A DNA stretch of 48,923 nucleotides from a virus. Positions 3,201-39,243 of the stretch are shown here, piece by piece. Positions within the stretch are counted from its first letter, which is position 1. Every line of letters starts with the position of its first letter. The position numbers and the translations under genes were made by a program. The stretch spans positions 1 to 48,923 of IMG/VR virus record IMGVR_UViG_3300023184_000194; one strand, written 5' to 3'. A model generated the notes under the pieces. It had not been told where the DNA came from and made no database searches. It saw nothing but the letters and a program-made list of their open reading frames with translations.

Positions 3201-3842
3201 ATGGATAAACTTGAACAACTTGAAAGTAGCTGGAAAGGGCATCGTGCGTTTGCTGAATGGCTAACACAGCGTTTGCAACCCAAAATAACAGTAGAATTAG
3301 GCGTGGATTACGGCTACAGCTTGTTTTGCCTAGCAAACAAAAACCCAGGGCGTGTGATTGGCATTGACCTATTTGAAGGTGATGCACATGCAGGCACACG
3401 TGAAAAAAATCAACACGAAACAGTGCAACAGTTTGCAACAGACAACGAGTACACCAATGTACAGTTGATCAAAGGCGACTTCACTGAGCTTGCACAGTAT
3501 TGGGTAGCACCAATTGATATCTTGCACATTGACGGGCTACACACATATGAAGCTTGTTTGATGGACTTTGTGAACTGGGGTCCGCACGTGAGCGCCACAG
3601 GAGTGGTACTCATGCACGATATCACATCCTACCCAGATGTTACTCGAGTATTTCTAGAAGTAGGTGCTCAAGCCAAAGTGGCATTTTTGCATTCCGCAGG
3701 ACTGGGCGTGGTCTGCAGAGATCTTGCGCTGGCTCAAGAGATACTAGATCGGTACCCTGACGCAGTTAGCGGCCAGGCACTAGCAGAAGAAATGGTCAAG
3801 CTGAAACAAGACGCCCAGCGGTTCCGTGTTAATACCCCTTAA
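3201..3842 (+). CDS. Class I SAM-dependent methyltransferase (Methyltransf_24-like)
   Basis: This 213-residue protein has the Rossmann methyltransferase order. An ELGVDYGYSLFCLA segment (residues about 33-46) is the SAM-binding motif I, VIGIDLFEG follows as motif II with an acidic residue, and DILHIDGLHTYEACLMDF lies at the motif IV position. The DIxHIDGxHxYE pattern is characteristic of the small FkbM/Methyltransf_24-type group, which often modifies sugars or acts near glycosyltransferases. The gene is on the plus strand, opposite to both neighbours, and its 3' end overlaps the convergent gene by four bases. The substrate is unknown. A role in glycan or surface modification is inference from family habit and the nearby heptose operon. 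Confidence 0.75.
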   Translation: MDKLEQLESSWKGHRAFAEWLTQRLQPKITVELGVDYGYSLFCLANKNPGRVIGIDLFEGDAHAGTREKNQHETVQQFATDNEYTNVQLIKGDFTELAQYWVAPIDILHIDGLHTYEACLMDFVNWGPHVSATGVVLMHDITSYPDVTRVFLEVGAQAKVAFLHSAGLGVVCRDLALAQEILDRYPDAVSGQALAEEMVKLKQDAQRFRVNTP

Positions 3843-4396
3843 ACAGTATAACGGTAGTTGACCATGATTCCCCAGCTTTCGCCCTGGCGAATATCGCTGG
3901 AATCTGCATCAAAGTTTACTGCGTGTAGGCTAGCACCGTTGCCCAGATGGAACTTGGCCACAGGATCTTTACGCTCTGCAATGAATTCACGCACCTGTTC
4001 TTCTGTAGGAGGTGCGTCAAAGTGCTTGCTCAGACTTGGAATAGGACTCAGTGTGTAAAAGTTTTTCACACCTTGTGCGCTGAAATGGCTCACAGCTTCT
4101 TTCAGTGCTCTGGCACCCACACCCATCAGTGCATCAGGCAAGCGAAAGATGGTGTAGAACATGGCAGTGAGTCCTTCGTCTTTGCTGTCCACGAAGATAT
4201 CTTTCATGCTTCGCACCAGGTCGTCACTTATCTTTGTGCAAATCATGCACTGATTTTGATCTTGTTCCTCGTACATCAATACTGTACGTGTGCCCAGGGT
4301 ACGAGATTCTTTAGCAATAGTTGGATGAACAGGGTCGTGGCTGATGAGCTCGAGCCATTGCTTGTCAAATTTTTCAGAGTTGGATGGGATGATCAT
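3839..4396 (-). CDS. Malonyl-CoA decarboxylase C-terminal (GNAT-fold)-like protein
   Basis: The 185-residue product matches, as I recall the family, the C-terminal catalytic domain of malonyl-CoA decarboxylase. Residues 80-127 contain MFYTIFRLPDALMGVGARALKEA followed by YTLSPIPSLSKHF, and residues 145-183 contain DPVAKFHLGNGASLHAVNF then GIMVNYRY. In the enzyme the Ser of SLSPIP and the His of FHLxNGA are the catalytic pair. Here these are Ser117 and His150, so both are present. Full-length bacterial enzymes are about 450 residues with an extra helical N-terminal domain, which is absent here. The reaction would be malonyl-CoA to acetyl-CoA and CO2, or an acetyl transfer by the same fold. The gene has its own late promoter at 4424-4431. 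I know of no standard phage gene of this type. Confidence 0.7.
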   Translation of the reverse strand: MIIPSNSEKFDKQWLELISHDPVHPTIAKESRTLGTRTVLMYEEQDQNQCMICTKISDDLVRSMKDIFVDSKDEGLTAMFYTIFRLPDALMGVGARALKEAVSHFSAQGVKNFYTLSPIPSLSKHFDAPPTEEQVREFIAERKDPVAKFHLGNGASLHAVNFDADSSDIRQGESWGIMVNYRYTV

Positions 4397-4423
4397 GGAA
4401 ATTTCCTGGTTGAGTTATGTGCG

Positions 4424-4431
4424 TATTTATA
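4424..4431 (-). promoter_or_regulatory. Late promoter, exact TATAAATA
   Basis: The minus strand reads TATAAATAC, the exact T4 late promoter octamer, 28 bases before the ATG of the malonyl-CoA-decarboxylase-like gene. An AGGAA ribosome site lies between them. Confidence 0.75.
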
Positions 4432-4455
4432 CTGTGGTGCAAAAACAGAGGTCAA

Positions 4456-4502
4456 AAGAAAAACCCTGACGTGCATGGATGATCAATCCGCAGAGGTCAG
4501 GG
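4456..4502 (-). terminator. Intrinsic terminator after tRNA-Ser and the heptose operon
   Basis: On the minus strand CCCTGAC and GTCAGGG arms (4496-4502 and 4464-4470) enclose a loop of about 25 bases and are followed by TTTTTCTTTT. It lies just after tRNA-Ser and before the late promoter of the next gene. Confidence 0.65.
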
Positions 4503-4511
4503 CCGTGTTAT

Positions 4512-4601
4512 TGGCGGAAGTGGTAGGATTCGAACCCACGGTGCCTTTCGACACTTCAGTTTTCAAGACTGCTGCCTTAAGCCATGCTCAGCCACACTTC
4601 C
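4512..4601 (-). tRNA. tRNA-Ser (UGA)
   Basis: Acceptor GGAAGTG pairs with CACTTCC and the CCA end is encoded. The anticodon loop is CTTGAAA and a long variable arm marks it as class II serine. It lies only one base after the stop of the asparagine-synthetase-like gene, so it is probably cut out of that operon transcript. Confidence 0.93.
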
Positions 4602-4602
4602 A

Positions 4603-5772
4603 TTATCTTGATAGGAACTCGTACAGTTTGTATATTGCTGTGCGGTCCATGTTTTTATGCTTGACTAGATAGCCAAGTAACTCAGGCTCATTGCGAGCTA
4701 TGAGTAATTTTTGTATTTTGGCATCAACGATAGATTCAATTATATGTTGTTGGTCGTCCATACTGAGTATTAGCTTGAGTATGCCAATGTCCTTGAACGG
4801 AGTAAACGTTAGTGTTTGCCCAAGGTGCCAGTGCTGGTGATCGTTAATGCACATCCGCAGAATATAGTCCGCAGTTGTTTCTCTACTTTGTATTGCCTTT
4901 TGTATTTGTTCGTCCTGTACTTGTCGCTTGTACAGGGCTGATTTCTCTATGCCCCGAAAGTACTGGTAGTGATAATGATCAGGGGTTAACACCTGCTCCA
5001 TGCTCTTGCCCAAGTGCATGAGCATGATATTTGCTGTTGCTGGTCCACGCAAAAAATATTCATCTCCGCAAGCACCAGTCACAAGCATGGTAGGCTCACG
5101 GTAGTGATGAATCTGTGTATAGCCCCAATGGGCTTTTAGTTCGTTGTCAAACTCGCATGTGAACTGATCATAGTCATAATGTTCTCCACACACAAGTTCA
5201 AATGGTATTTCTAATGCTCGCAAGTAACTGATGCATGTTAGCGTATCAATTCCGCCCGAAAAGAACACTCGGATATTGTCTGTGTTGAGTGCCAACCACT
5301 GAAAACGAGCAGTTAACATATTATGTATTTCGTCCAACACGCTGTAGATTGACTGTGGGTCTATGCCAGGCACAGCACCCCAGCGATGTTCAAGTATTGT
5401 GCTGGTCATGACAACCCAGGCATCTGCCCAGACATTCTGACCTGTCACACCCATGTTGCCTAGTTCAAACTTGTCATCGTTACGCCACAGTGGTGTAGCT
5501 CTTGATGTATCGTTTGTGACCACAACTGCACCGTCGTTCTTGGCCAGCACCGCAACAAAGCTACCTGTGTAACAGGGCTCAGGGTCCTGCATGAGCTTGG
5601 TAGCAAAATACTGGCTAAGTCCATGTTCATGACAGTAGCCTTTGATGTAAGCAAAGCCATGCTCTGTCCAGATCTCTGTCCATCCTGTATCGCAGTTCAA
5701 CCACAGATTATCTCTAAGCAGAAACTGCACAGGAAATCGCATGTCCTGCTCTGGTGCTATGCGAAAGAACAT
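4603..5772 (-). CDS. Asparagine-synthetase-like PP-loop amidotransferase
   Basis: In this 389-residue protein the PP-loop ATP-pyrophosphatase motif FFSGGIDTLTC sits near residue 170. It is preceded by a weak beta-rich N-terminal half (GSFVAVLAKNDGAVVVTNDTSRATPLW) like the glutaminase-type domain of AsnB. The sequence starts MFFRIAP and lacks the Cys2 nucleophile of a working class II glutaminase, so it may use free ammonia or only adenylate its substrate. VTGACGDEYFLRGP resembles the second AsnB synthetase motif. It is the last protein gene of the HldE-cupin operon, overlapping the cupin stop by one base. The substrate is unknown. Amidation of a sugar-linked acid or an amino acid is inference. 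Confidence 0.7.
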   Translation of the reverse strand: MFFRIAPEQDMRFPVQFLLRDNLWLNCDTGWTEIWTEHGFAYIKGYCHEHGLSQYFATKLMQDPEPCYTGSFVAVLAKNDGAVVVTNDTSRATPLWRNDDKFELGNMGVTGQNVWADAWVVMTSTILEHRWGAVPGIDPQSIYSVLDEIHNMLTARFQWLALNTDNIRVFFSGGIDTLTCISYLRALEIPFELVCGEHYDYDQFTCEFDNELKAHWGYTQIHHYREPTMLVTGACGDEYFLRGPATANIMLMHLGKSMEQVLTPDHYHYQYFRGIEKSALYKRQVQDEQIQKAIQSRETTADYILRMCINDHQHWHLGQTLTFTPFKDIGILKLILSMDDQQHIIESIVDAKIQKLLIARNEPELLGYLVKHKNMDRTAIYKLYEFLSR

Positions 5773-6131
5773 TACGTTTGACTGTCGCCTTTGCCCACTC
5801 TGTAGTTGTCTTCCACTGAGTCTGGTGTGCTGACCTCAATTACTGTGCCTGCTTCAAGACATTCCAACTGATGTGGCTTGCAGGGTTCGTTGTGCCATAC
5901 TGCACCATCACGCAGTTCTTTTTCATGGTGTTCAGCAGTGGCAGTGTCAATCCAGCGCACAATAAACCGTCCTGATTGTACATACCAGGTTTCTTCTTTG
6001 AACTGATGAAAGTGCATACTGAACTTTGCACCTGCATTGAAGTTCATGAACTTGCCGCAGTACTTGTCATTGGTGGCCCAGATAAACTCTGAACCCCACC
6101 CCTTGGGTACTAGTCCTTTTAACTGTGTCAT
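5772..6131 (-). CDS. Single-domain cupin, sugar-isomerase type
   Basis: This 119-residue protein carries the cupin pattern. KGWGSEFIW lies near the N-terminus, the metal-binding FSMHFHQFKEETWYVQSGRF near residues 36-55, and HQLECLEAGTVIEVSTP near 90-106. The opening resembles the cupin domain of type II mannose-6-phosphate isomerases and related sugar-binding cupins. Its start overlaps the stop of the HldE kinase gene (ATGA), and its stop touches the asparagine-synthetase-like gene, so it belongs to the sugar-activation operon. It may bind or isomerise a sugar phosphate. The exact reaction is not readable. Confidence 0.72.
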   Translation of the reverse strand: MTQLKGLVPKGWGSEFIWATNDKYCGKFMNFNAGAKFSMHFHQFKEETWYVQSGRFIVRWIDTATAEHHEKELRDGAVWHNEPCKPHQLECLEAGTVIEVSTPDSVEDNYRVGKGDSQT

Positions 6132-6877
6132 TTGATTTCCTCTAATCGGGGTGCGTACACACCTGTGTGTTGTACAGTGACGGCGCTGGCCCGAATAGCA
6201 AATTGAATTGCTTGGCTCATGTCACCGTCTGTATTTAGATATTCATATGCCAGTGCGGCAAGGAATGTATCACCGGCTCCACACACGTCAGTAACGTCTA
6301 TTTCAGGCGCCGGATACATGACAAAATTGTGCAAAGCGCCTGCTTTGCCCAGCGTTACAATCATGTCAGTACAATCGCTGTGTCTTGCCTTGTATTCAAC
6401 TTCGTTGATCTTTACAATGCAACCTTCAAATCGTTTTAGGTCCTGCTTCTTGGTGTCAATGAAAATAGGACCTGGAAATTCTCTACGTAGTTCTTCTACC
6501 AGTTCGTATGTGATCAAGCCTTTGTTGTAGTCGCTGATCACAATGGCATGATACACTTGTGGTATTGCTGTTTCAAACACTAGCGGATCGTTTTTGACAT
6601 CAGCATCAATGCGAACAATCTGTTGCTTGCTACGACTGTCAATCAGTCTGGTCTTTGTGCCTTCTTGCCCTGTGATAAAATTTGCAGTCAGCCCAAGTGC
6701 TTTGAGATTTTCATATACATTGGACGCCATGCCCGGACGGGTTTCTTCATGTGCAGGCACAAACACAGGAACAGGAGCTTCTGGACTCATGCGATCAACT
6801 GTGCCGTATTGATAAACGTCTAAACAACTGTCACCTAGTAACAATATGTTGAATTGCTTTTGTACTGGAGTACTCAT
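6128..6877 (-). CDS. hldE: HldE kinase-domain homologue (PfkB family)
   Basis: The gene encodes 249 residues from the ATG at 6877. A TTG twelve bases upstream is a weaker start. PfkB-family features are seen: LLLGDSCLDVYQYGTVDRMSPEAPVPV near the N-terminus, VISDYNKGLI in the middle, and the C-terminal DVCGAGDTFLAALA with the catalytic Asp of the GAGD motif. DRMSPEAPVPVF is the signature of the heptose-7-phosphate kinase domain of HldE. The known reaction is phosphorylation of heptose-7-phosphate to the 1,7-bisphosphate, a step toward ADP-heptose for lipopolysaccharide. The family is usually about 310 residues for this domain, so this copy is compact. It overlaps the nucleotidyltransferase gene by 47 bases. 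Confidence 0.82.
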   Translation of the reverse strand: MSTPVQKQFNILLLGDSCLDVYQYGTVDRMSPEAPVPVFVPAHEETRPGMASNVYENLKALGLTANFITGQEGTKTRLIDSRSKQQIVRIDADVKNDPLVFETAIPQVYHAIVISDYNKGLITYELVEELRREFPGPIFIDTKKQDLKRFEGCIVKINEVEYKARHSDCTDMIVTLGKAGALHNFVMYPAPEIDVTDVCGAGDTFLAALAYEYLNTDGDMSQAIQFAIRASAVTVQHTGVYAPRLEEIK

Positions 6878-7226
6878 CAAGTCTTTCAAAAAATTCTATG
6901 TGTGGCACGTGCTCTTCTCCAATGATTGGACGCCCACGGTAATCACTGCCTTTGACCATGATGTCTGGTTCGCTGGTTTGAATAAGGTATTCTAGTTCTT
7001 GATCTGTGTCAAAGGTACATACCTTGCTCACATACTTTAGACCTTGTAGCATTAGTCGGCGTTCGTCTTGATTAAAGAACGGACGACCTGCGCCTTTCAG
7101 CTGGCGTACCCGACGGTCTGTGTCAATGGCAACTGTGACTTGACCAAGACTGGCCGCATACTGCAACAACATCACATGGCCTGGATGCAGGATATCAAAC
7201 GTACCATTAACAAAAACTCTATTCAT
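6831..7226 (-). CDS. hldE: HldE nucleotidyltransferase-domain homologue
   Basis: The product is 131 residues from the second of two adjacent ATGs (7226). The first is at 7229. It has VFVNGTFDILHPGHVMLLQ with the HxGH nucleotide-binding motif, and DIMVKGSDYRGRPIIGEE, as in the heptose-1-phosphate adenylyltransferase half of HldE. In bacteria the two halves are normally fused, kinase first. Here they are separate genes in reversed order. Together they would convert heptose-7-phosphate toward ADP-heptose, with GmhA, GmhB and HldD steps coming from the host. The promoter at 7233-7261 puts the predicted transcript start on the ATG. Confidence 0.82.
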   Translation of the reverse strand: MNRVFVNGTFDILHPGHVMLLQYAASLGQVTVAIDTDRRVRQLKGAGRPFFNQDERRLMLQGLKYVSKVCTFDTDQELEYLIQTSEPDIMVKGSDYRGRPIIGEEHVPHIEFFERLDEYSSTKAIQHIVTR

Positions 7227-7232
7227 CATAAC

Positions 7233-7261
7233 AGTATATAGTACTGCACAAAGCTAGTCAA
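7233..7261 (-). promoter_or_regulatory. sigma70 promoter of the heptose operon, leaderless start
   Basis: On the minus strand TTGACT (7261-7256), a 17-base spacer and TATACT (7238-7233) are present. Six bases further the second ATG of the nucleotidyltransferase gene begins, so the expected +1 is its A. Confidence 0.7.
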
Positions 7262-7267
7262 CAATAT

Positions 7268-7341
7268 TGGTGCTCAAGTACAGAATCGAACTGTCGATTG
7301 CTCCTTACCATGGAGCCGTTATGCCACTTAACTACAAGAGC
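7268..7341 (-). tRNA. tRNA-Thr (GGU)
   Basis: The anticodon loop is ATGGTAA, giving GGU, and the CCA is encoded. The acceptor has two T-T mismatches in the middle and the T-stem has one mismatch, so it is a slightly degraded fold. Confidence 0.82.
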
Positions 7342-7342
7342 G

Positions 7343-7420
7343 TGGTACCCCCGCTCGGAGTCGAACCGAGAGAATTTCTCCTTTTGAGAGAGACGACTTT
7401 GCCAATTTGTCCACAGGGGC
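7343..7420 (-). tRNA. tRNA with Leu anticodon (CAA) but short variable loop
   Basis: Acceptor GCCCCTG pairs with CGGGGGT, the T-arm is CTCGG/CCGAG with loop TTCGACT, and CCA is encoded. The anticodon loop CTCAAAA gives CAA (Leu), yet only about six bases separate the anticodon stem from the T-stem. Bacterial leucine tRNAs normally have a long variable arm, and the two other Leu tRNAs of this window do. Confidence 0.75.
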
Positions 7421-7584
7421 GTTATAGGTTTTCCAAGTGCCCAACTATCCGGGTGGCCCGGCCTTGCTGGATTGTCTCGTAAGGGCAAGTCTTTGCTGAC
7501 CACAAATAGCCATCTTGCGTTGTCACCGAGCAGCCACTCGGCTAGACTAAGTGGGACTCAAACCCTACGTCTATCTCAGAAACT
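7421..7584 (-). other. Non-coding stretch with stable hairpins between tRNAs
   Basis: There is no tRNA or credible ORF in these 164 bases. On the minus strand a T-arm-like GGGTTTGAGTCCC, a perfect CCGAG/CTCGG hairpin and a CCGGG-CCA-CCCGG hairpin are visible. It may be a tRNA remnant or a processed structured RNA. Confidence 0.4.
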
Positions 7585-7660
7585 TGGTGGATGTAGTTGG
7601 ACTCGAACCAACGATCTTTTCCGTATGAAGGAACTGCATTAGCCACTATGCTATACATCC
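7585..7660 (-). tRNA. tRNA-Met (CAU), elongator type
   Basis: Acceptor GGATGTA pairs perfectly with TACATCC, the anticodon loop is TTCATAC, and CCA is encoded. With G1-C72 paired it is not an initiator. A CAU anticodon modified to read isoleucine AUA cannot be excluded. Confidence 0.88.
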
Positions 7661-7664
7661 AAAT

Positions 7665-7741
7665 TGGCGACCCCGAATGGATTTGAACCACTGACATTTG
7701 GTTTTGGAGACCAACGTTCTGCCGGACTGAACTACGGAGCC
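7665..7741 (-). tRNA. tRNA-Trp (CCA)
   Basis: Anticodon stem TTGGT/ACCAA encloses loop CTCCAAA (anticodon CCA). The discriminator is G and CCA is encoded. Confidence 0.93.
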
Positions 7742-7746
7742 ATGTA

Positions 7747-7860
7747 TGGTGCTTTCTGCGGCGCTTGAATCCACGGTAGCCCTACTCTTCATGGCCGGTC
7801 CTTGTACATGGTCGACATTGACAAGTATTTCGGTGTTCCATTGTAGCTACTACAGAAAGC
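7747..7860 (-). ncRNA. tRNA-like element with intact acceptor stem and enlarged centre
   Basis: GCTTTCT at 7860-7854 and AGAAAGC at 7757-7751 form a perfect seven-pair acceptor followed by A and an encoded CCA. A T-arm-like GTGGA-TTCAAGC-GCCGC precedes the 3' strand. The region between is about 37 bases longer than in a tRNA, with a CTTGT/ACAAG stem closing a 15-base loop and no clear anticodon. It is either a decayed tRNA or a tRNA-shaped small RNA. Confidence 0.45.
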
Positions 7861-7865
7861 ATAAC

Positions 7866-7939
7866 TGGTTGCGGGAGGCGGAATCGAACCACCATCTGAA
7901 GCTTATGAGACTTCTGAATTACCGTTACTCTATCCCGCG
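7866..7939 (-). tRNA. Initiator-type tRNA-fMet (CAU)
   Basis: The 5' C1 faces A72 unpaired, and the D-stem has A11 opposite U24. Both are bacterial initiator hallmarks. The anticodon loop is CTCATAA and CCA is encoded. The anticodon stem GAAGT/GCTTC lacks the three consecutive G-C pairs normally found at 29-31/39-41 of initiators. Confidence 0.85.
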
Positions 7940-7946
7940 ATAATCT

Positions 7947-8038
7947 TGGCGGAAACGGAGAGATTCGAACTCTCGGTGCCAATTACTTGACACGACAGGT
8001 TAGCAACCTGCTGCCTTAGACCACTCGGCCACGTTTCC
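7947..8038 (-). tRNA. tRNA-Ser (GCU)
   Basis: Class II tRNA with long variable arm. The anticodon stem GCAGG/CCTGT has loop TTGCTAA, the acceptor is GGAAACG/CGTTTCC, and CCA is encoded. It is the first gene after the sigma70 promoter at 8049-8077. Confidence 0.93.
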
Positions 8039-8048
8039 AGTTGTTTGT

Positions 8049-8077
8049 ATTATATATTGATACTACATTGATGTCAA
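8049..8077 (-). promoter_or_regulatory. Perfect sigma70 promoter inside the tRNA array
   Basis: The minus strand has TTGACA (8077-8072), a 17-base spacer and TATAAT (8054-8049), a full consensus. It points at tRNA-Ser(GCU) and the tRNAs beyond it. Confidence 0.88.
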
Positions 8078-8086
8078 TGTTTATTT

Positions 8087-8162
8087 TGGTAGTTCCTAGC
8101 GGGTTTGAACCACTGACCTTTACGATGTCAACGTAACGCTCTACCAACTGAGCTAAGGAACT
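8087..8162 (-). tRNA. tRNA-Val (GAC)
   Basis: Anticodon stem TTACG/CGTAA with loop TTGACAT gives GAC. Acceptor AGTTCCT pairs with AGGAACT, and CCA is encoded. Confidence 0.92.
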
Positions 8163-8164
8163 GT

Positions 8165-8239
8165 TGGTACCGCTAGGAGGAATCGAACCTCCGTCTTAAC
8201 CTTAGGAGTGTTTTGTTCTATCCACTGAACTATAGCGAT
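8165..8239 (-). tRNA. tRNA-Arg (CCU)
   Basis: Loop CTCCTAA gives anticodon CCU. The acceptor is ATCGCTA/TAGCGGT and the T-arm GGAGG/CCTCC. The anticodon stem has mismatches at both ends (A-A, A-G), so the fold is somewhat weak. Confidence 0.82.
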
Positions 8240-8241
8240 GT

Positions 8242-8316
8242 TGGCGCCTCTTGCAGGAATCGAACCCACACCCTTTGTTTCGAAGACAAAGATGATATCC
8301 ATTTCACCAAAGAGGC
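8242..8316 (-). tRNA. tRNA-Arg (UCG)
   Basis: Anticodon stem TTTGT/ACAAA with loop CTTCGAA gives UCG. The acceptor is GCCTCTT/AAGAGGC, and CCA is encoded. Confidence 0.93.
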
Positions 8317-8319
8317 ATA

Positions 8320-8395
8320 TGGTACCAAGAGTTGGACTCGAACCAACCACACCTAGTGCTTCAAACTAGTGCTCTACCTGATGAGCTATCTTGGC
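8320..8395 (-). tRNA. tRNA-Phe (GAA)
   Basis: Anticodon stem CTAGT/ACTAG with loop TTGAAGC gives GAA. Acceptor GCCAAGA pairs with TCTTGGT, and CCA is encoded. Confidence 0.92.
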
Positions 8396-8402
8396 ATTGT
8401 AT

Positions 8403-8477
8403 TGGGTTGAGGTACGAGGATCGAACTCGTGATAGCGGAATCACAACCCGCGGTTTTACCACTAAACTAACCTCAAC
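8403..8477 (-). tRNA. tRNA-His (GUG)
   Basis: The loop TTGTGAT gives GUG. The gene encodes the extra 5' G(-1) opposite C73, which is the histidine identity pair, and CCA is encoded. Confidence 0.93.
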
Positions 8478-8484
8478 ATAAAAC

Positions 8485-8558
8485 TGGTGCCCCGTGACAG
8501 AATCGAACTGCCAACTACTGATTACAAAACAGTTGTTATACCACTTAACTAACAGGGC
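8485..8558 (-). tRNA. tRNA-Thr (UGU)
   Basis: The loop TTTGTAA gives UGU. The acceptor GCCCTGT pairs with ACGGGGC through wobbles, and CCA is encoded. It is the second threonine isoacceptor of the array. Confidence 0.9.
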
Positions 8559-8564
8559 TTGTAT

Positions 8565-8641
8565 TGGTGCGACCGGAGAGACTCGAACTCCCGACACCTG
8601 ACTTCGTAGGCCAGTACTCTATCCAACTGAGCTACGGTCGC
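8565..8641 (-). tRNA. tRNA-Arg (ACG)
   Basis: Anticodon loop CTACGAA gives ACG, which needs deamination of A34 to inosine to read CGU/CGC/CGA. Acceptor GCGACCG/CGGTCGC is perfect. Confidence 0.93.
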
Positions 8642-8649
8642 ATTGTATT

Positions 8650-8725
8650 TGGCAGGGGAGATGAGATTCGAACTCATGATGACGATTTCAAAGACCGTTG
8701 CCTTAGGCCACTAGGCGACACCCCA
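8650..8725 (-). tRNA. tRNA-Gln (UUG)
   Basis: The loop CTTTGAA gives UUG. The acceptor begins TGGGG and has a U1-U72 mismatch, consistent with glutamine tRNAs, which keep the first pair weak. CCA is encoded. Confidence 0.9.
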
Positions 8726-8731
8726 ACAGAA

Positions 8732-9541
8732 CTATTCTGATAGCATATTGCCAATGCCAACATTTTTATGTGTTTGATTGCAGTATGCTACGTGTATTGC
8801 TTTTGTAGGCAATAGATTTAGATCATTGCATATCTTGTGATGCAACTCTCCGTATGTGTTCCACGCATGGTCACGTGGAATGTTTTGCATCATGTACACG
8901 CCGCAACTCATCAAACTTAGATTTACGCGACCACGGTAAAGATGATTAAACATTGTAATGGAATCAATATAACGTTTTCTTGCCCAGCGCAATCCTATGC
9001 GATTCCATTCCAGCGAGTACTTGCTCATGCTCATTGCAAAGCTCTGTATCCTGGGATGATCAAAATTAAGTGTTATATCTCTAGAACAGGTTAGCCAAGC
9101 ACAGTCAATGTGTATGTCAATGTTCTTGGCTTCACACTCTGCTAGTACATCTGGCCAGTCCGGCCTTACATCTGTATAACTATGATTAGGCAACGACAGC
9201 ATCAGCGGCACACCTGGGCGAAGCTGTCCTGGCTGTGTTGGAGCCATGCCCATTTTGCTATAGTAAGAATATTCGTCTGGCAGAATCTGGATATTGTTCC
9301 AACCATGTTTGCCGGCCACAGACTCAATGAAATGAGTACAACCCATGGTTGAATCCACACAAGGAAAAGCGTCCCATCCAGTTAAATTGTTAAGTCGAGT
9401 AGATCGAAACCATTCCTGTGCAACTGCAATGTATTCATCTTTGGATACTTCGCGTTGCGGATCCTGAAACCATTGCTGTCTTAATCTTTGAAACAAAGCG
9501 TCATTGAGTGGATACAATGTATCAGTTGGTTTGTTTTGCAT
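8732..9541 (-). CDS. Divergent PLP-dependent aminotransferase-like protein in tRNA array
   Basis: This 269-residue protein shows the order of fold-type I PLP enzymes. LMLSLPNHSYTDVRPDW (about 113-129) resembles the NPNNPTG strand-turn. DIHIDCAWL has Asp146 at the place that binds the pyridine nitrogen, SFAMSMSKYS has Lys174 at the Schiff-base lysine, and NRIGLRWAR has Arg186 at the phosphate-binding or substrate arginine. It is shorter than the usual 350-400 residues and lacks the usual C-terminal domain. The gene sits between tRNA-Gln and tRNA-Val with a TAAATA element six bases ahead of its ATG. The substrate is unknown. The family call rests on motif order only. Confidence 0.5.
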   Translation of the reverse strand: MQNKPTDTLYPLNDALFQRLRQQWFQDPQREVSKDEYIAVAQEWFRSTRLNNLTGWDAFPCVDSTMGCTHFIESVAGKHGWNNIQILPDEYSYYSKMGMAPTQPGQLRPGVPLMLSLPNHSYTDVRPDWPDVLAECEAKNIDIHIDCAWLTCSRDITLNFDHPRIQSFAMSMSKYSLEWNRIGLRWARKRYIDSITMFNHLYRGRVNLSLMSCGVYMMQNIPRDHAWNTYGELHHKICNDLNLLPTKAIHVAYCNQTHKNVGIGNMLSE

Positions 9542-9547
9542 AGTTAA

Positions 9548-9553
9548 TATTTA
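9548..9553 (-). promoter_or_regulatory. Late-type TAAATA six bases before an ATG
   Basis: The minus strand reads TTAAATATTAACT then ATG of the PLP-like gene. With T4 late spacing the transcript would start at or beside the start codon. Confidence 0.5.
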
Positions 9554-9578
9554 ATCACTTGTGCTTGCTGATAAAAAT

Positions 9579-9653
9579 TGGTACATCCTCACGGTTTCGA
9601 ACCGCGGACCCTTTCCGTGTAAAGGAAACGCTCTACCCCTGAGCTAAGGATGC
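9579..9653 (-). tRNA. tRNA-Val (UAC)
   Basis: Anticodon stem TTTCC/GGAAA with loop TTTACAC gives UAC. The acceptor is GCATCCT/AGGATGT, and CCA is encoded. Confidence 0.93.
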
Positions 9654-9662
9654 AAACTAACA

Positions 9663-9739
9663 TGGTCGGAGTACAAGGATTCGAACCTTGGACCCCCTGG
9701 TCCCAAACCAGGTGCGCTACCGGACTGCGCCACACTCCG
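9663..9739 (-). tRNA. tRNA-Pro (UGG)
   Basis: Anticodon stem CCTGG/CCAGG with loop TTTGGGA gives UGG. The first pair is C1-G72 as usual for proline, and CCA is encoded. Confidence 0.93.
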
Positions 9740-9746
9740 AATAAAT

Positions 9747-9822
9747 TGGTGGAGGATACAGGGATCGAACCTGCGACCTATTGCTTGCAAAGCAACCGCT
9801 CTCCCAACTGAGCTAATCCCCC
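9747..9822 (-). tRNA. tRNA-Ala (UGC)
   Basis: Anticodon stem GTTGC/GCAAT with loop TTTGCAA gives UGC. The acceptor is GGGGGAT paired with ATCCTCC (G3-U70 present), and CCA is encoded. Confidence 0.93.
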
Positions 9823-9828
9823 AAATAC

Positions 9829-9904
9829 TGGCTCCACAGGGTGGGCTCGAACCACCGACCAAATGATTAACAGTCATCTACTCTACCGACTGAGCTACTG
9901 CGGA
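9829..9904 (-). tRNA. tRNA-Asn (GUU)
   Basis: Anticodon stem GATGA/TCATT with loop CTGTTAA gives GUU. The acceptor is TCCGCAG/CTGTGGA, the discriminator G, and CCA is encoded. Confidence 0.92.
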
Positions 9905-9925
9905 ATATATTTTGTTTGAAATGTA

Positions 9926-10001
9926 TGGAGCGGGAAAGGAGGCTCGAACTCCCGACCTATACCTTGGCAAGGTATCGCTCTACCAACTGAGCTATTCCCG
10001 C
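9926..10001 (-). tRNA. tRNA-Gly (GCC)
   Basis: Anticodon stem ATACC/GGTAT with loop TTGCCAA gives GCC. Acceptor GCGGGAA/TTCCCGC is perfect, the discriminator is U, and CCA is encoded. Confidence 0.93.
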
Positions 10002-10045
10002 ATACACTTCTACTTATCAATGCAATATTGCTATTACAAAATTTT

Positions 10046-10120
10046 TGGTTGCCTATCTTGGGAACGATCCAAGGACCCCCGCCTTATCAAGACGGTGCTC
10101 TACCACTGAGCTAATAGGCA
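10046..10120 (-). tRNA. tRNA-Ile (GAU) with altered T-loop
   Basis: The anticodon stem CCGTC/GGCGG has loop TTGATAA (GAU) and the acceptor is TGCCTAT/ATAGGCA. The T-loop reads ATCGTTC instead of TTCGATC, so positions 54 and 58 are swapped from U-A to A-U. Confidence 0.88.
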
Positions 10121-10197
10121 ATAATACCATATAGAAACACACTATCCTCTCAAGTTCCTTGGGACGGGCTGTTCACCGTGCGTAGTATGTTTTTATA

Positions 10198-10273
10198 TGG
10201 TAGAAGCAGTGGGACTCGAACCCACAACTATCCGGTTAAAAGCCGGGTACTCTAGCCATTGAGTTATGCTTCC
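10198..10273 (-). tRNA. tRNA-Lys (UUU)
   Basis: The loop CTTTTAA gives UUU. The acceptor GGAAGCA pairs with TGCTTCT with a G1-U72 wobble, the T-arm GTGGG/CCCAC is perfect, and CCA is encoded. Confidence 0.92.
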
Positions 10274-10276
10274 ATA

Positions 10277-10352
10277 TGGTCCCTGCGGTCAGGCTCGAAC
10301 TGACGACCAGCGGATTAAGAGTCCGTTGCGCTACCAACTGCGCCACACAGGG
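10277..10352 (-). tRNA. tRNA-Lys (CUU)
   Basis: The loop CTCTTAA gives CUU, the acceptor is CCCTGTG/CGCAGGG, and CCA is encoded. It is a second lysine tRNA with a different body from the UUU gene, so it is not a recent duplicate. Confidence 0.9.
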
Positions 10353-10672
10353 TTGTACGTATCGTTTGATTTTACGTGCCAACCCTAGACCATACGGATG
10401 CCTAGAGTGACACTAGAGTTTACCTCGTTTCATGTCATTCTCCAATGTTAAATTAAAAATGCTCGGCGACCCCGGTGGTAATTATACCGCATCAGAAATT
10501 TGGTCAGGTTGCCCCAATTAGTCTTTCATCACGCACGGCCTCCACCCACTTCCCGACAGGTTCCGTTCTCGCATTGCCAGCGGCCTTTTGGTAAGAAGAC
10601 TACCACCCTTGGCTATCACACCACTTCTCATCGTGCGGGTCACACTATCTGCTGATTAGGGCAGAACGTTCT
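10353..10672 (-). ncRNA. Candidate structured non-coding RNA segment, 320 bp
   Basis: There is no credible ORF or tRNA between tRNA-Lys and tRNA-Cys. The minus strand shows short hairpins (CTGCCCTAATCAGCAG, GGTA/TACC pairs, a GGCC/GGCC pairing across about 50 bases) and a purine-rich stretch. The stretch is too long for a plain tRNA spacer and may be part of a large RNA read with the tRNAs. Confidence 0.35.
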
Positions 10673-10750
10673 TGGAGCAACGGACAGGATTTGAACCTGT
10701 GGTTTTCAGGATTTGCAATCCCGTGCATTGGGCCGCTCTGCCACCGTTGC
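10673..10750 (-). tRNA. tRNA-Cys (GCA)
   Basis: Loop TTGCAAA gives GCA. Acceptor GCAACGG/CCGTTGC is perfect, and the discriminator U73 is the cysteine identity base. CCA is encoded. Confidence 0.93.
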
Positions 10751-11069
10751 GTTGCTATACTGAAACACACTGGCTGTTGCTTGTCATTGTCTTTAACTAC
10801 CTCTCGGTGGCGGTAGACCAATGTATGTAAGGGTGAGATTGAATTTGAGAGCCTACGCCGCTTTTATCGTAGATTTATTCAGGACTTACCGGCCGCCTAG
10901 CCTGACCTCGAGCACGATGGATATCACTTGGGTACCTGTCCAGTTAGCAACCATCTGCGCCGATCCCATTCAAGCGATCGGCCGGGAGTTGAACCCGTCC
11001 CCTTTTACTAACTTGGTCCTTCGAAGAAACCTCATTAGCGTGACTGTACTTGCTGACACTCTCAAAACT
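10751..11069 (-). ncRNA. Candidate structured RNA with tRNA-like half and serial hairpins
   Basis: On the minus strand, from 11069 downward, there is an anticodon-arm-like GGTTT-CTTCGAA-GGACC and a T-arm-like ACGGG-TTCAACT-CCCGG. Immediately after comes a perfect GCCGATC/GATCGGC hairpin with a 10-base loop, which has the geometry of a permuted acceptor stem. Further hairpins are TCAGG/CCTGA, CTACG/CGTAG and CTACC/GGTAG. No long ORF has coding character. It could be a permuted tRNA or tmRNA-like relic, or part of a larger ornate RNA. Confidence 0.4.
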
Positions 11070-11145
11070 TGGCGCCTCGTAGGGGTTTCGATCCCCTTAC
11101 CTCGACAGTGACAGTGTCGCGCTCTCCCAATTGAGCTAACGAAGC
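11070..11145 (-). tRNA. tRNA-Asp (GUC)
   Basis: Anticodon stem CGACA/TGTCG with loop CTGTCAC gives GUC. Acceptor GCTTCGT/ACGAGGC, discriminator G. The T-loop is ATCGAAA, lacking the conserved U54. Confidence 0.9.
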
Positions 11146-11149
11146 ATAA

Positions 11150-11225
11150 TGGTACACGGTACGGGAATCGAACCCGTCTTACTAACGTGAAAGGCTAGTG
11201 TCCTAAACCGATAGACGAACCGTGC
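11150..11225 (-). tRNA. tRNA-Glu (UUC)
   Basis: Anticodon stem CTAGC/GTTAG with loop CTTTCAC gives UUC. The acceptor is GCACGGT/ACCGTGT, and CCA is encoded. Confidence 0.93.
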
Positions 11226-11231
11226 ATTAAA

Positions 11232-11317
11232 TGGTGGAGATGGATGGATTCGAACCACCGCGCTTTTTAGGGGACAGATTTACAGTCTGTTGCAATCAAC
11301 CACTCTGCCACATCTCC
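11232..11317 (-). tRNA. tRNA-Tyr (GUA)
   Basis: Anticodon stem ACAGA/TCTGT with loop CTGTAAA gives GUA. A long variable arm as in bacterial tyrosine tRNAs is present. Acceptor GGAGATG/CATCTCC is perfect. Confidence 0.93.
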
Positions 11318-11524
11318 ATATTAAAACATACTACAGGAACTCCACTTACCTCACAGGACCGTCTCCTGCTACTTCCGCTTCGTCATTACAGTTCAGCATA
11401 CTCCACCGTGTCATACTTGGGTTTCCCCTCAACTTTCATGTGCGTTGCACAGAGCCAGCCCGTCAGCTAGTTATCCTCAGTGCAAGCACCTAGCGGTGCT
11501 GACAACCTCTAATACATTTTAATA
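11318..11524 (-). ncRNA. Structured non-coding spacer, 207 bp
   Basis: The minus strand carries GCACC/GGTGC, a TGCAC/GTGCA stem closing about 30 bases with an inner AGC/GCT pairing, and CAGGA-GACGG-TCCTG. No ORF or tRNA is seen. The density of short GC-rich stems suggests a folded RNA co-transcribed with the tRNAs. Confidence 0.35.
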
Positions 11525-11609
11525 TGGTGCCCCAAAGGAGACTTGAACTCCTACGCCTCTCGGCACTGGCTTCTAAGACCAGCGTGTCTACCAATTCCAC
11601 CATCGGGGC
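11525..11609 (-). tRNA. tRNA-Leu (UAG)
   Basis: Anticodon stem CTGGT/GCCAG with loop CTTAGAA gives UAG. A normal long variable arm is present, and the acceptor GCCCCGA pairs with TTGGGGC. CCA is encoded. Confidence 0.93.
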
Positions 11610-12028
11610 AATTTGTCACAACAGATTGTTAATGAACTGTATTCGTCTGCATGAGTATGCAGTTGTTCTAGCAACACGATGTTTGCTACAGTTCCACAAG
11701 TATAACATCTTTTGCGAAAACGTCAACCTCTGTTTTTATAACCCTACAAGCTGTAAGGTCTTTGTTTTTACTGCACTGGTTGTTGCGTCCACAACCTGCC
11801 GCCTGCCGATTCACAGTCGGTTAGGCTTGGCCATCCAATGCAGGTATTAAAGCACTCTACATGGATGAACCCACTTGTCCCCTCGCGGGTAGAGAATGCT
11901 TTAATACGTTACCATTTTACCATCTGCGTTTCCACCACAGACTTCTCATCCGGTAAGCCGCCCTCATTATAGCCGATGTTTATAGTGCCAGCAGGGTCGC
12001 GTTCCCTATACACACTTTTCATGATCCT
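11610..12028 (-). ncRNA. Non-coding region with a long stem-loop (11845-11906)
   Basis: No ORF with coding character is seen. TATTAAAGCA plus CTCTAC at 11845-11860 pairs with GTAGAG plus TGCTTTAATA at 11889-11906, 16 pairs with a two-base bulge. An anticodon-arm-like CCGA-CTGTGAA-TCGG (about 11800-11820) and a GGTTGT/ACAACC hairpin follow on the minus strand. It lies upstream of the promoter at 11699-11726. It is either a leader or a separate structured RNA. Confidence 0.4.
11699..11726 (-). promoter_or_regulatory. sigma70 promoter ahead of tRNA-Leu (UAG)
   Basis: TTGACG (11726-11721), 16-base spacer, TATACT (11704-11699) on the minus strand. The same GAGGTTGAC context occurs at the promoter 12287-12315. 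It would drive the Leu-Tyr-Glu-Asp-Cys tRNA block. Confidence 0.65.
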
Positions 12029-12055
12029 AAAAACAAAAAACCCCAGGGTTTTTAA
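12029..12055 (-). terminator. Terminator-like hairpin with T-rich flanks on both strands
   Basis: AAAAACC-CTGG-GGTTTTT on the minus strand is followed by TTGTTTTT. The symmetric A/T flanks would also work on the plus strand. It closes the short unit started by the promoter at 12287-12315. Confidence 0.5.
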
Positions 12056-12091
12056 GCCTAGGGTCCTTGGAGTTTGCTGAGTTAATTTGTG

Positions 12092-12232
12092 TTAACTATG
12101 CGAATCTCCTGGACCCTTGGTGCCTGGTAGTGTGCGATCATTACTAATCTCAGTCGCAGACCACAAGGCCACCGGCATAAATGAATATGCTTGGCTATGC
12201 TGTTTGCAGTTGAGAACGAATGTCGATTTCAT
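12092..12232 (-). CDS. Possible 46-residue peptide with its own promoter
   Basis: The ORF starts at ATG 12232 with AAGGAA about 12 bases upstream, encodes MKSTFVLNCKQ...GDSHS and ends at TAA 12094-12092. A near-consensus sigma70 promoter lies 55 bases upstream and a terminator-like hairpin 40 bases downstream, so the unit looks like an isolated small gene. No signal, membrane segment or known motif is seen. Inverted repeats (AGGGTCC/GGACCCT, GTTAA/TTAAC) overlap its 3' half, so the transcript may instead act as an RNA. Confidence 0.35.
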   Translation of the reverse strand: MKSTFVLNCKQHSQAYSFMPVALWSATEISNDRTLPGTKGPGDSHS

Positions 12233-12286
12233 TTTGTTTCTTTTTCCTTTTGATACCTAGCGTACTATACGCTGTGTATGTCTTGT

Positions 12287-12315
12287 ATTGTAGAGATATT
12301 TAGCAATGCTGTCAA
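12287..12315 (-). promoter_or_regulatory. Strong sigma70 promoter for small gene or RNA
   Basis: TTGACA (12315-12310), 17-base spacer and TACAAT (12292-12287) on the minus strand. Confidence 0.8.
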
Positions 12316-12358
12316 CCTCTATTGTGTTTTATTTAGTCAAATGGCAAAAAATTGCAAA

Positions 12359-13234
12359 TTAACTAATTTTACTTAGATCGCAGTTGGCAAAGTCAAATGT
12401 TGTACGGTGTAGCACACGATCAGGCATGCCATCGAACTTCCAACGCTTGTGTATTCCCAACCACTGTTCCGAGATCACTACATCCCCATCCTTCCAGTCA
12501 TGATGGTAAATGTATTTGTCTTGCAACACATGATCGCGTAAGTCTTGTATTATGCGCTTGCTCATGCTTTCTGTCAACCCCACAAAGTTACGAAATTGCA
12601 AAAACGGAAAAAATAGTCCTGTCTTGCGTCCAATGTTGGTATGCACAAGATTTGGTGTGTAGTGTTCGTTGAAGTCTTCTTGCCGACCTTGTTTGGCACC
12701 ACCAAAGTCAAACTCGCTGTAGCTGTAGCGTTTCCAACCACACACCATACGAAAGTCCGCAAAAGTTTGCTTTTCTTCTTCGCTCAAATCATCGTAGGCC
12801 AGGATGTTGTTGGTCCAACTGGTCCTGCTACCTTCGGTACCACGCACACCCAACAACCAAACTAGTGGCTTGCGCTGAGGATCACCTGGCTGATTGCAAT
12901 GCCAATCAAGATCACTCACGTGACCAAACAAGCCAGGCAGTCCGTGTTCATCTAGTTCACCGGTCACCCGTTCCATTTTGTTACCACTACCTGGTACCAA
13001 GATATGATTGTAAGGTGGCACATCTGCCACTGCTGATAAATCTTCTACTGTGCCAAACATTTGTGCCACATGCACTTCGTCTTGTACTGTGAGATGATTT
13101 TGGTCGTGAGCAACTACAAGGGTATTGGTTGCTAACAAACAACCAATTTCATTGATATCTTCTTGTGTGGCTGTGGCAAAGTCAAAATCATCCAGGATCA
13201 CAGTCCAGCCGTTTTCATGCAAGTGATAGTTCAT
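12359..13234 (-). CDS. TauD/TfdA-like Fe(II)/2-oxoglutarate dioxygenase
   Basis: This 291-residue protein has the TauD layout. DLDWHCNQPGDPQRKPLVWLLG (about 108-130) occupies the first metal site. DGDVVISEQWLGIHKRWKFDG followed by RVLHRTTFDF near the C-terminus carries the distal His and the 2-oxoglutarate-binding Arg. The family would catalyse an iron-dependent oxidation of a small molecule using 2-oxoglutarate and O2. The usual HxD pair reads His-Cys-Asn, so the carboxylate ligand is replaced, which could alter metal binding. The start overlaps the stop of the DUF2061 membrane-protein gene (ATGA), so the two are coupled. The substrate is unknown. Confidence 0.72.
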   Translation of the reverse strand: MNYHLHENGWTVILDDFDFATATQEDINEIGCLLATNTLVVAHDQNHLTVQDEVHVAQMFGTVEDLSAVADVPPYNHILVPGSGNKMERVTGELDEHGLPGLFGHVSDLDWHCNQPGDPQRKPLVWLLGVRGTEGSRTSWTNNILAYDDLSEEEKQTFADFRMVCGWKRYSYSEFDFGGAKQGRQEDFNEHYTPNLVHTNIGRKTGLFFPFLQFRNFVGLTESMSKRIIQDLRDHVLQDKYIYHHDWKDGDVVISEQWLGIHKRWKFDGMPDRVLHRTTFDFANCDLSKIS

Positions 13235-13407
13235 AGTTTTCCCCAGTGTATTTTGAGCCAGGCACGTTCCATGGCATAATGCAATGTTGCTAGAACTATA
13301 TGGATCACTATTGCATCACCTAGTCCAGTCCAAATTGCTGTGATCAGCAGGGCTGTTATTCTATAACTTACTGTACGGACGATTGTACGGGCATGTGTCT
13401 CTGACAT
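13231..13407 (-). CDS. DUF2061-type small membrane protein (58 aa)
   Basis: The ORF starts at ATG 13407 and encodes MSETHARTIVRTVSYRIT followed by ALLITAIWTGLGDAIVIHIVLATLHYAMERAW. The R-T-V-S-Y/W-R-x-T opening, two short hydrophobic segments and the closing YxxERxWxxIxW pattern match the DUF2061 family of small inner-membrane proteins as I remember it. The stop codon overlaps the ATG of the TauD-like gene. Function is unknown in the family. Coupling to a dioxygenase suggests a membrane-associated partner. Confidence 0.75.
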   Translation of the reverse strand: MSETHARTIVRTVSYRITALLITAIWTGLGDAIVIHIVLATLHYAMERAWLKIHWGKL

Positions 13408-13450
13408 TAAATTACTTATATCGTCGGACTAGGATACAAAATATTATAGT

Positions 13451-13535
13451 TGGTACGAGTAACCGGAGTCGAACCGGTACGCCTAACGGCGGCGGATTTT
13501 AAGTCCGCTGGGTCTACCAATTCCCCCATACTCGC
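13451..13535 (-). tRNA. tRNA-Leu (UAA)
   Basis: Anticodon stem GCGGA/TCCGC with loop CTTAAAA gives UAA. A normal long variable arm is present, the acceptor is GCGAGTA/TACTCGT, and CCA is encoded. Confidence 0.93.
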
Positions 13536-13543
13536 AGTAGTTT

Positions 13544-14011
13544 TTATTCAATTTCTAACCAGGTATGGTCACCCATGTACTTTACTTGTGCCTGGTATTC
13601 ATAGTCTTCAGGTGCAGAGCTTGACCAGTCATTTGGCCCCATTGGTGTTAAAATATTCTGTTGCTTTCGTTTATCCCAAGCCAACCAGTACACATTGCCC
13701 ATCACAGGCTGGAATTGATATACTGCGGCATGCACTGCATCAGTGATATCTAATCTACGCTTGATGGCTTGTGCTTGTTTTTCCAGCACAACTACCAGTT
13801 CCATGATCCTGTCATACTCTTGCTGGGCATACATCCTGGCATGGTTGATCATGAGATCTTTTTGCTGTGTCACAGGCACAAGGTCAAACTTAGGACCACC
13901 TGCTTCTGTTGGGTAAGGTGTGACGTTTCGATTGAAAAACGGAATCATTGCGCCTGTGCTAGTAGAATCATAACTGTCTCTACCCTTGGCAAGGTTTGAT
14001 TTTTGTTCCAT
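13544..14011 (-). CDS. DUF2452-like conserved protein
   Basis: The 155-residue product has the order I associate with DUF2452: an N-terminal PYPTEAGGPKFDLVPV, a central charged helical stretch with likely coiled-coil character (YDRIMELVVVLEKQAQAIKRRLDI), then FQPVMGNVYWLAWDKRKQQNILTPMGPNDW and a C-terminal YMGDHTWLEIE. The family is found in bacteria and phages without a known function. The gene lies between two tRNA blocks. No catalytic residues stand out. Confidence 0.6.
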   Translation of the reverse strand: MEQKSNLAKGRDSYDSTSTGAMIPFFNRNVTPYPTEAGGPKFDLVPVTQQKDLMINHARMYAQQEYDRIMELVVVLEKQAQAIKRRLDITDAVHAAVYQFQPVMGNVYWLAWDKRKQQNILTPMGPNDWSSSAPEDYEYQAQVKYMGDHTWLEIE

Positions 14012-14027
14012 GCATTTACTTATGTCT

Positions 14028-14102
14028 TGGTCCGGCGCACAGGAATCGAACCCGTATTCGTAAGGTAGAAGCTTACTGTATTATCCGTTATACTAACGCC
14101 AG
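14028..14102 (-). tRNA. tRNA-Arg (UCU)
   Basis: Anticodon stem GTAAG/CTTAC with loop CTTCTAC gives UCU. The acceptor CTGGCGT pairs with GCGCCGG through two wobbles, and CCA is encoded. It is the fourth arginine tRNA of the window. Confidence 0.92.
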
Positions 14103-14107
14103 GTGTT

Positions 14108-14184
14108 TGGTGGGCCGACTGGGATTCTAACCCAGGATCAATGGCTTATGAGGCCACTGCTTTAGGACACTAAGCTATCGGCCC
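14108..14184 (-). tRNA. tRNA with CAU anticodon (Met or lysidine-Ile)
   Basis: Acceptor GGGCCGA/TCGGCCC is perfect, the anticodon stem is GTGGC/GCCAT and the loop CTCATAA. It could be elongator Met or, after lysidine modification, Ile(AUA). The T-loop reads TTAGAAT, with A in place of the conserved C56. Confidence 0.88.
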
Positions 14185-24191: not shown

Positions 24192-24725
24192 ATGAACTGC
24201 CTTCTTCTAAACTCTAATTACGAGCCTATTTCAATCCTTCCATTGAGCATCATCAACTGGCAACATGCTATCAAGCTGATGTTTTTGGATAGAATTACTG
24301 TGCTTGAAGAATACGAGAACCACGTTGCTCGTAGTGCCAGCTTGACTATTCATTACCCTGCGGTTGCTGTGACCAAAAACTACTTCAACAACAAGAAGGG
24401 TGTGCGTTTTAGCCGTGCTAACTTGTACCTACGTGACTTGTACCAGTGCCAATACTGCGGTGACACATTTGACAACAACGAGCTGACTATCGACCACATG
24501 ATCCCAAAAGCATCAGGTGGTAAGGTCAACTGGGAAAATGCTGTTACTGCTTGCAAGACATGCAATCATAAAAAAGGCACCAAGCTATGGAAGCCTATGA
24601 ACATGCCCTACAAGCCTGACTACTACCAATTGGTCAACAAGTGGAAGGGTCGTCCTGTGCATATCCAGCATTCAAGTTGGTACCAGTATCTAGGCATTGA
24701 GGACAAGCAACAGGCCATGGGATGA
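24192..24725 (+). CDS. HNH endonuclease-family protein
   Basis: The protein is 177 residues. The N-terminal LLLNSNYEPISILPLSIINWQHAIKLMF is typical of one HNH subfamily. The HNH core is CQYCGDTFDNNELTIDHMIPK followed by NAVTACKTCNHKKG, with two CxxC zinc pairs and the DH catalytic pair. HNH proteins of this kind sit next to terminases in many tailed phages and can assist DNA cutting during packaging. A homing role is also possible. The gene is divergent from the large terminase gene. Confidence 0.85.
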   Translation: MNCLLLNSNYEPISILPLSIINWQHAIKLMFLDRITVLEEYENHVARSASLTIHYPAVAVTKNYFNNKKGVRFSRANLYLRDLYQCQYCGDTFDNNELTIDHMIPKASGGKVNWENAVTACKTCNHKKGTKLWKPMNMPYKPDYYQLVNKWKGRPVHIQHSSWYQYLGIEDKQQAMG

Positions 24726-24728
24726 TCA

Positions 24729-39212: not shown

Positions 39213-39243
39213 GTCGTCTTTTTCCTTTATATGACGTTTTAGA

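Follow-up and report, generated by a model that had tools for sequence, protein, structure and literature searches.

Malonyl-CoA decarboxylase (MCD; EC 4.1.1.9; PF05292), known from human MLYCD, bacterial MatA and the crystal structures 2ygw, 4f0x, 4ks9, 4ksa and 4ksf, is the described system closest to the phage protein reported here; it breaks down malonyl-CoA, from which fatty acids are built, to acetyl-CoA and CO2. The active site of the human enzyme is built on a dyad of Ser329 and His423, with Tyr456 holding the histidine and Phe288 lying under the malonyl carboxylate; MCDs also conserve an Asp at the position of Arg404 in the related domain of CurA, and two positions before the histidine they carry a residue for the 3'-phosphate of CoA that varies but is often basic (PMC3701320). 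This site sits in the catalytic domain and the other monomers add little to it, while an insert between strands beta5 and beta6 blocks GNAT-style dimerisation through the beta strands (PMC3701320). An N-terminal helical oligomerisation domain, not in the active site, belongs to the architecture of all solved MCDs; the helical insert between beta5 and beta6 is poorly conserved even among them. GNAT decarboxylase domains without the MCD helical domain occur in the CurA GNAT-like loading domain and in GphF and SxtA, which are modules of natural-product synthesis. In Rhizobium, MatA, MatB and MatC form a malonate cluster (An and Kim 1998, as cited in PMC12303837). An analogous reaction on a malonyl thioester is carried out by the malonyl-ACP decarboxylase MadA/MadB, but its active domain is an unrelated hot-dog domain with a catalytic Asn, and the GNAT half of MadA is without decarboxylase activity; its product, acetyl-ACP, is useful to bacteria (PMC8666670).

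A short homologue of malonyl-CoA decarboxylase in a T4-like phage

The window, i.e., the whole stretch of 48,923 nucleotides that was analysed, is a virus record encoding a T4-type terminase, tail sheath, tube and gp15-like, RecA/UvsX-like and gp32-like proteins; its terminase is closest to those of PA5oct-type jumbo Pseudomonas phages (54% identity). An earlier note, made from the sequence alone, had pointed to a 185-residue protein with an MCD-like catalytic domain, a serine in an SLSPIP-type motif, a histidine in an FHLxNG motif and no N-terminal helical domain. The open reading frame is indeed present, on the minus strand (the note gave none), and is called sMCD (short malonyl-CoA decarboxylase) hereafter (Table 1). 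The motif YTLSPIPS places the serine at position 117, FHLGNG places the histidine at position 150, both in agreement with the note, and the frame begins directly at the catalytic domain. What had been overlooked is that the alpha5-alpha7 helical insert between beta5 and beta6 is missing as well: only 33 residues separate Ser117 and His150, against 48-95 in the full-length bacterial MCDs of our genome scan, which mostly measure 400-550 amino acids. Seven phage pairs of short MCDs gave dN/dS values of 0.04-0.10, and the sMCD frame is under strong purifying selection.

Table 1. Positions in the window of the sMCD gene, its active-site codons and its promoter element
Feature	Position	Strand	Remarks
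sMCD (short malonyl-CoA decarboxylase) ORF	3839..4396	(-)	185 aa, ATG start, GNAT-fold catalytic domain only
Phe80 codon	4157..4159	(-)	Equivalent to human Phe288; invariant (38/38 short, 59/59 full-length)
Ser117 codon	4046..4048	(-)	Equivalent to human Ser329, dyad; invariant (38/38 short, 59/59 full-length)
His150 codon	3947..3949	(-)	Equivalent to human His423, dyad; invariant (38/38 short, 59/59 full-length)
Tyr183 codon	3848..3850	(-)	Equivalent to human Tyr456, holds catalytic His; invariant (38/38 short, 59/59 full-length)
TATAAATA, late promoter element of the T4 type, upstream of sMCD	4424..4431	(-)	Supported by ATAAATA position and by conservation in other phages

The 185-residue product is confirmed as a true homologue of the MCD catalytic domain. 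It matches PF05292 with 72.3 bits (cut-off 23.2; E=6.2e-20), as do six other short members (E of 1.7e-21 or better), and no GNAT profile is listed by the Pfam search even at E<=10. The top PDB sequence matches are MCD crystal structures (4ksf, E=5e-12), and a family profile of the relatives retrieves only MCDs from the PDB, with 4ks9 as the best (E=2.7e-27). In a Foldseek search with an AlphaFold2 model built from 33 relatives (mean pLDDT 94.7, pTM 0.90), MCD chains occupy ranks 1-17 (TMq 0.73-0.80) and are followed by the CurA decarboxylase domain, the GphF GNAT-like decarboxylase and then acetyltransferases, with the decarboxylase SxtA ranked among these; identity to CurA, GphF and SxtA is 12-16%. 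In both structure models every MCD chain, and after these the MCD-like decarboxylase CurA, ranks above the canonical acetyltransferases. Pfam, PDB and structural rankings thus agree with the earlier assignment, and no unrelated GNAT family, named in the earlier note as the finding that would speak against it, scored better. Because this high-confidence model aligns so well with MCDs, Ser117 and His150 are likely to lie in one pocket.

To count the residues of the MCD active site, 38 short proteins were aligned together with 59 full-length ones (Table 1). In addition to the four invariant positions, the MCD-type Asp165, at the position of CurA Arg404, is found in 38/38 short and 53/59 full-length proteins, and position 148, which corresponds to the site for the CoA 3'-phosphate and is Lys148 in the phage protein, carries Lys or Arg in all 38 short members. 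Two differences are fixed in the short clade: Asp21, where each of the 59 full-length MCDs has Glu, and Arg or Lys at position 85, where these have Asn or Ser. The protein does not resemble a canonical GNAT N-acetyltransferase, a type with a general-acid Tyr and a general-base Glu, as it has no GNAT profile match and carries His150 in the place of that Tyr (PMC3701320), nor a CurA-type decarboxylase/S-acetyltransferase, as it has Ser117 instead of the dyad Thr and Asp165 instead of Arg404. Compared with the described MCDs it shares the GNAT-type catalytic fold, the Ser/His dyad, the Phe under the carboxylate, the His-holding Tyr and the MCD-type Asp, and differs in its size, in lacking both helical elements, in the residues at 21 and 85, and in being phage-borne with a late-type promoter. 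The N-terminal helical domain is absent from all phage and Bacteroidota short members. As the active site resides in the catalytic domain (PMC3701320), this absence argues for a separate subfamily and is no argument against the predicted chemistry. With the insert that blocks beta-strand dimerisation gone, and with other monomers adding little (PMC3701320), a short MCD could be a monomer or a GNAT-style dimer.

Late-type promoter and occurrence among phages

The earlier note had also reported an exact late promoter. TATAAATA is the late promoter of T4 and NATAAATA that of T4-like cyanophages (PMC2984593), and an element of the corresponding form, (N/T)ATAAATA, lies just upstream of the sMCD start codon, the first base of its ATAAATA core being 34 bp before the ATG. 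The exact octamer occurs once in the window against 1.4 expected, which is chance level, and its count was dropped as promoter evidence in favour of position and conservation. Both support the claim. ATAAATA lies 20-45 bp upstream of same-strand gene starts in five of eight cases in the window, whereas permuted 7-mers do so in only 4 of 192 (Fisher p=2.6e-6); one of these placed copies precedes the tail-tube gene. Furthermore, it stands 27-38 bp before the sMCD start in 24 of 25 phage loci (the window and 23 of the 24 others, some of which are near-copies and hence amount to fewer independent cases), often as ATAAATACGCATAT. Upstream of the 13 Bacteroidota loci discussed below it was found in none. 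A sigma-70 promoter scan gave nothing above shuffled sequences and no minus-strand site. Since ATAAATA is non-randomly placed and is conserved before the orthologues, late expression of sMCD appears well supported. Another ATAAATA, at 39250, falls just inside the listed TTG start of the tail sheath gene (35907-39344, minus strand; up to 1145 aa), the true start of which is probably further downstream.

Three scans of IMG/VR were made for relatives, the widest of which gave 30 loci, many of them on contigs of 50-360 kb and some being near-copies from related samples. The short-MCD subfamily (183-216 aa) is spread over no fewer than four metagenomic phage groups with differing gene neighbourhoods, and many of these phages are large; the nearest orthologues of the window protein, in other virus contigs, are 91% and 89% identical. 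Among 50,697 GenBank phages neither the window protein nor the short relative L044 found a match, and a further short relative (L008) found only a weak one in a Pelagibacter phage, which proved to be a remote relative. No PHROGs profile matches sMCD, and no report of a phage malonyl-CoA decarboxylase was found in the open-access literature. The earlier remark that this is not a standard phage gene consequently holds for GenBank phages and PHROGs; in metagenomic phages the gene is recurrent. The neighbours that recur in some phage groups are a metallophosphoesterase (13 loci) and an endonuclease, and no lipid genes were seen among the neighbour families that were profiled, which are a minority. 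A malonyl-CoA synthetase partner was considered and rejected: PF00501 (AMP-forming ligase) is found in only two of 17 phage records, neither time in a recognisable malonate cassette, and the matches adjoin an SDR-like gene and a hexapeptide-transferase-like gene. In one phage record (G011), several kb separate sMCD from an AMP-forming acyl ligase (L126, 69304-70248), behind which lies an SDR-like gene.

The remote relative is QOI69107.1 of Pelagibacter phage Mosig (MT647606.1:110161-110646), which aligns to sMCD with an hhalign probability of 97% (E=6e-11) and has the DPVxP, TLSP and FHIRNGA motifs in common with it. It differs in its length of 161 aa, in a Ser-His spacing of only about a dozen residues, in an Ala at the position of Phe80 and in a canonical GNAT phosphate loop, and it gives no Pfam MCD match. 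This GNAT-like family is abundant (the Ser and His motifs persist in at least 178 IMG/VR stretches), carries a TLSPLTPMATHFHIRNGA motif and is annotated as hypothetical; none of 80 IMG/VR relatives of this type has an upstream ATAAATA. In phage Mosig the gene lies between thyX and a gp59-like gene. From these sequence comparisons we regard the Mosig-type protein as related to sMCD and do not treat it as an MCD.

Short decarboxylases of Bacteroidota

Thirteen short relatives, matching over nearly their whole length with 42-47% identity, came from a scan of 84,980 genomes of bacteria and archaea; nearly all of the 13 are labelled Bacteroidota. Their loci look chromosomal, as sequence inspection found rplK/rplA-like, era-like and pdxA-like genes among the neighbours. 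Plasmid matches all cover less than 80% of the query and, where named, are annotated as MCD. The short form is rare, being present in one of 395 genomes taken phylum-wide (the centre itself) and in five of 197 genomes of one family. Two near-identical contigs (L047 and L049) stem from metagenome-assembled genomes, one labelled as Rhizobium and the other as Chitinophaga pinensis, which cannot both be right (a binning error).

One Bacteroidota subclade has the gene order transporter (Major Facilitator Superfamily, MFS), ligase, short MCD; in a Chitinophagaceae subclade the ligase lies at a greater distance upstream, separated from the short MCD by the transporter and one more gene. The ligase scores 475 and 500 bits against the malonyl-CoA synthase model NF005702, below its cut-off of 558, and in the PDB it is closest to malonyl-CoA synthetase 4fuq (4e-104; next family 2e-68). 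The assignment is weaker for the Chitinophagaceae ligase (362 bits, with a general acyl-CoA synthetase family close behind at 360). In the nine Bacteroidota genomes tested the short MCD is the sole MCD. Together with its place close to the MFS transporter and to a ligase resembling malonyl-CoA synthetase, this makes a good genomic case for the short fold as a working MCD, and the carriers appear to use malonate. The arrangement resembles the Rhizobium mat operon in having a MatB-like ligase and a transporter close by, and differs from it in having an MFS-type transporter and a decarboxylase of the short form; no such partners accompany the phage copy.

In the phylogenetic tree, short and full-length MCDs are separated with 100/100 support and the short ones are monophyletic. 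The Bacteroidota sequences form one clade (97/86) inside a clade (100/98) shared with the group of the window and a second phage group, and monophyly of the phage short MCDs was rejected by the AU test (p-AU 0.013). This suggests a single phage-to-Bacteroidota transfer as the simplest history, with the deeper branching of the phage groups weakly ordered; alternatively, the gene may have arisen in bacteria and passed into phages several times. The nested position of the Bacteroidota clade points to a bacterial catabolic pathway whose enzyme was probably acquired from phages.

Proposed function and alternative explanations

We think it probable that the gene encodes a minimal, stand-alone malonyl-CoA decarboxylase made late by a T4-like phage; its catalysis is a well-supported inference from the computed results, and its purpose a hypothesis. 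The phage protein most likely has the activity of its Bacteroidota relatives, since these seem to be the decarboxylase of a malonate pathway, and the late-type promoter together with the lack of a constant partner gene suggests that it acts alone. The GNAT-fold domain would bind malonyl-CoA with the pantetheine along beta4 and the 3'-phosphate near Lys148; Ser117 and His150, the latter held by Tyr183, would polarise the thioester carbonyl, the carboxylate would leave as CO2 over Phe80, and Ser117 would protonate the enolate to give acetyl-CoA. The net effect would be to undo the work of acetyl-CoA carboxylase and to drain malonyl-CoA, so that host fatty-acid, phospholipid and LPS synthesis would be throttled and acetyl-CoA returned at a time when the phage needs no more new membrane. 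The likely role would be to remove malonyl-CoA in the late phase of infection, which would stop fatty-acid synthesis and release acetyl-CoA. Two points count against this reading: the fixed residues at 21 and 85 could mean another acyl substrate, and the phage genes have no conserved metabolic partner, their neighbours being varied.

The former point leads to a variant that we hold to be rather unlikely, namely that sMCD is an MCD-fold decarboxylase with a shifted substrate, such as malonyl-ACP, methylmalonyl-CoA or another dicarboxylic thioester, and would for instance make acetyl-ACP in order to re-prime fatty-acid synthesis rather than stop it. The loss of the helical insert, evident from the short Ser-His spacing, alters the face beside the active site, and MadA/MadB provide a precedent for useful acetyl-ACP production (PMC8666670); yet the basic residue at the site that in CurA binds the CoA-specific 3'-phosphate is kept throughout the short clade, and a malonyl-CoA-synthetase-like ligase accompanies the closest relatives in bacteria. 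Somewhat less probable again is an acyltransferase that uses an MCD-like pocket to move an acyl group to a virion protein, a tRNA, a host protein or a carrier. The GNAT fold found by Foldseek would permit this, CurA is both decarboxylase and S-acetyltransferase (PMC3701320), and the Mosig relative combines the Ser/His motifs with a Phe-to-Ala change and a canonical GNAT phosphate loop. All MCD residues are kept in sMCD, however, including Asp165 in place of the CurA Arg404 thought to be important for S-transfer (PMC3701320), canonical GNAT families stay below threshold, and MCDs outrank all acetyltransferases in the structure models.

That the protein is catalytically dead or purely binding, e.g., a sponge for CoA thioesters or a regulator, might be imagined from the loss of both the insert and the N-terminal domain, but every catalytic residue is identical in 38 members over at least four phage groups with low dN/dS, and the Bacteroidota form is the sole MCD beside a malonyl-CoA-synthetase-like gene; we judge it improbable. 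A chance reading frame or host contamination of the virus record is hardly credible: a 241-aa frame does overlap on the opposite strand (3947-4672), but strong homology and purifying selection attach to the sMCD frame, and the phage structural genes and close orthologues in other virus contigs speak against contamination.

With a stand-alone malonyl-CoA decarboxylase as the preferred reading, a wider picture may tentatively be drawn, which we put at somewhat under an even chance: large phages use a minimal MCD as a late weapon against host lipid synthesis, and Bacteroidota adopted the phage enzyme for a malonate-utilisation operon. If true, the Bacteroidota malonate decarboxylase is a catabolic enzyme of viral descent. 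sMCD would extend the means by which phages redirect host metabolism to the removal of a lipid precursor, and the evidence hints strongly at late timing. Its 185-residue single domain would be, to our knowledge, the smallest MCD known, and predicts that catalysis needs neither the helical domain nor the large insert.

Some other genes of the window deserve mention. Adjoining sMCD, a cassette at 4603-7229 (minus strand) encodes a 389-aa protein, a cupin, a PfkB kinase and a cytidylyltransferase-like protein, and looks like a nucleotide-sugar or heptose-type pathway; the 389-aa protein has no Pfam, PHROG or PDB match and shows, by eye, an SGGID motif resembling that of PP-loop ATPases. Thirty-one tRNA genes of many specificities (4512-14184, minus strand) are interspersed with protein genes, and a TauD-family dioxygenase is encoded at 12359-13234 (minus strand). 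Between the terminase and the structural genes, on the opposite strand, an HNH endonuclease is followed by a B12-binding/radical-SAM-like protein (24192-26396, plus strand).
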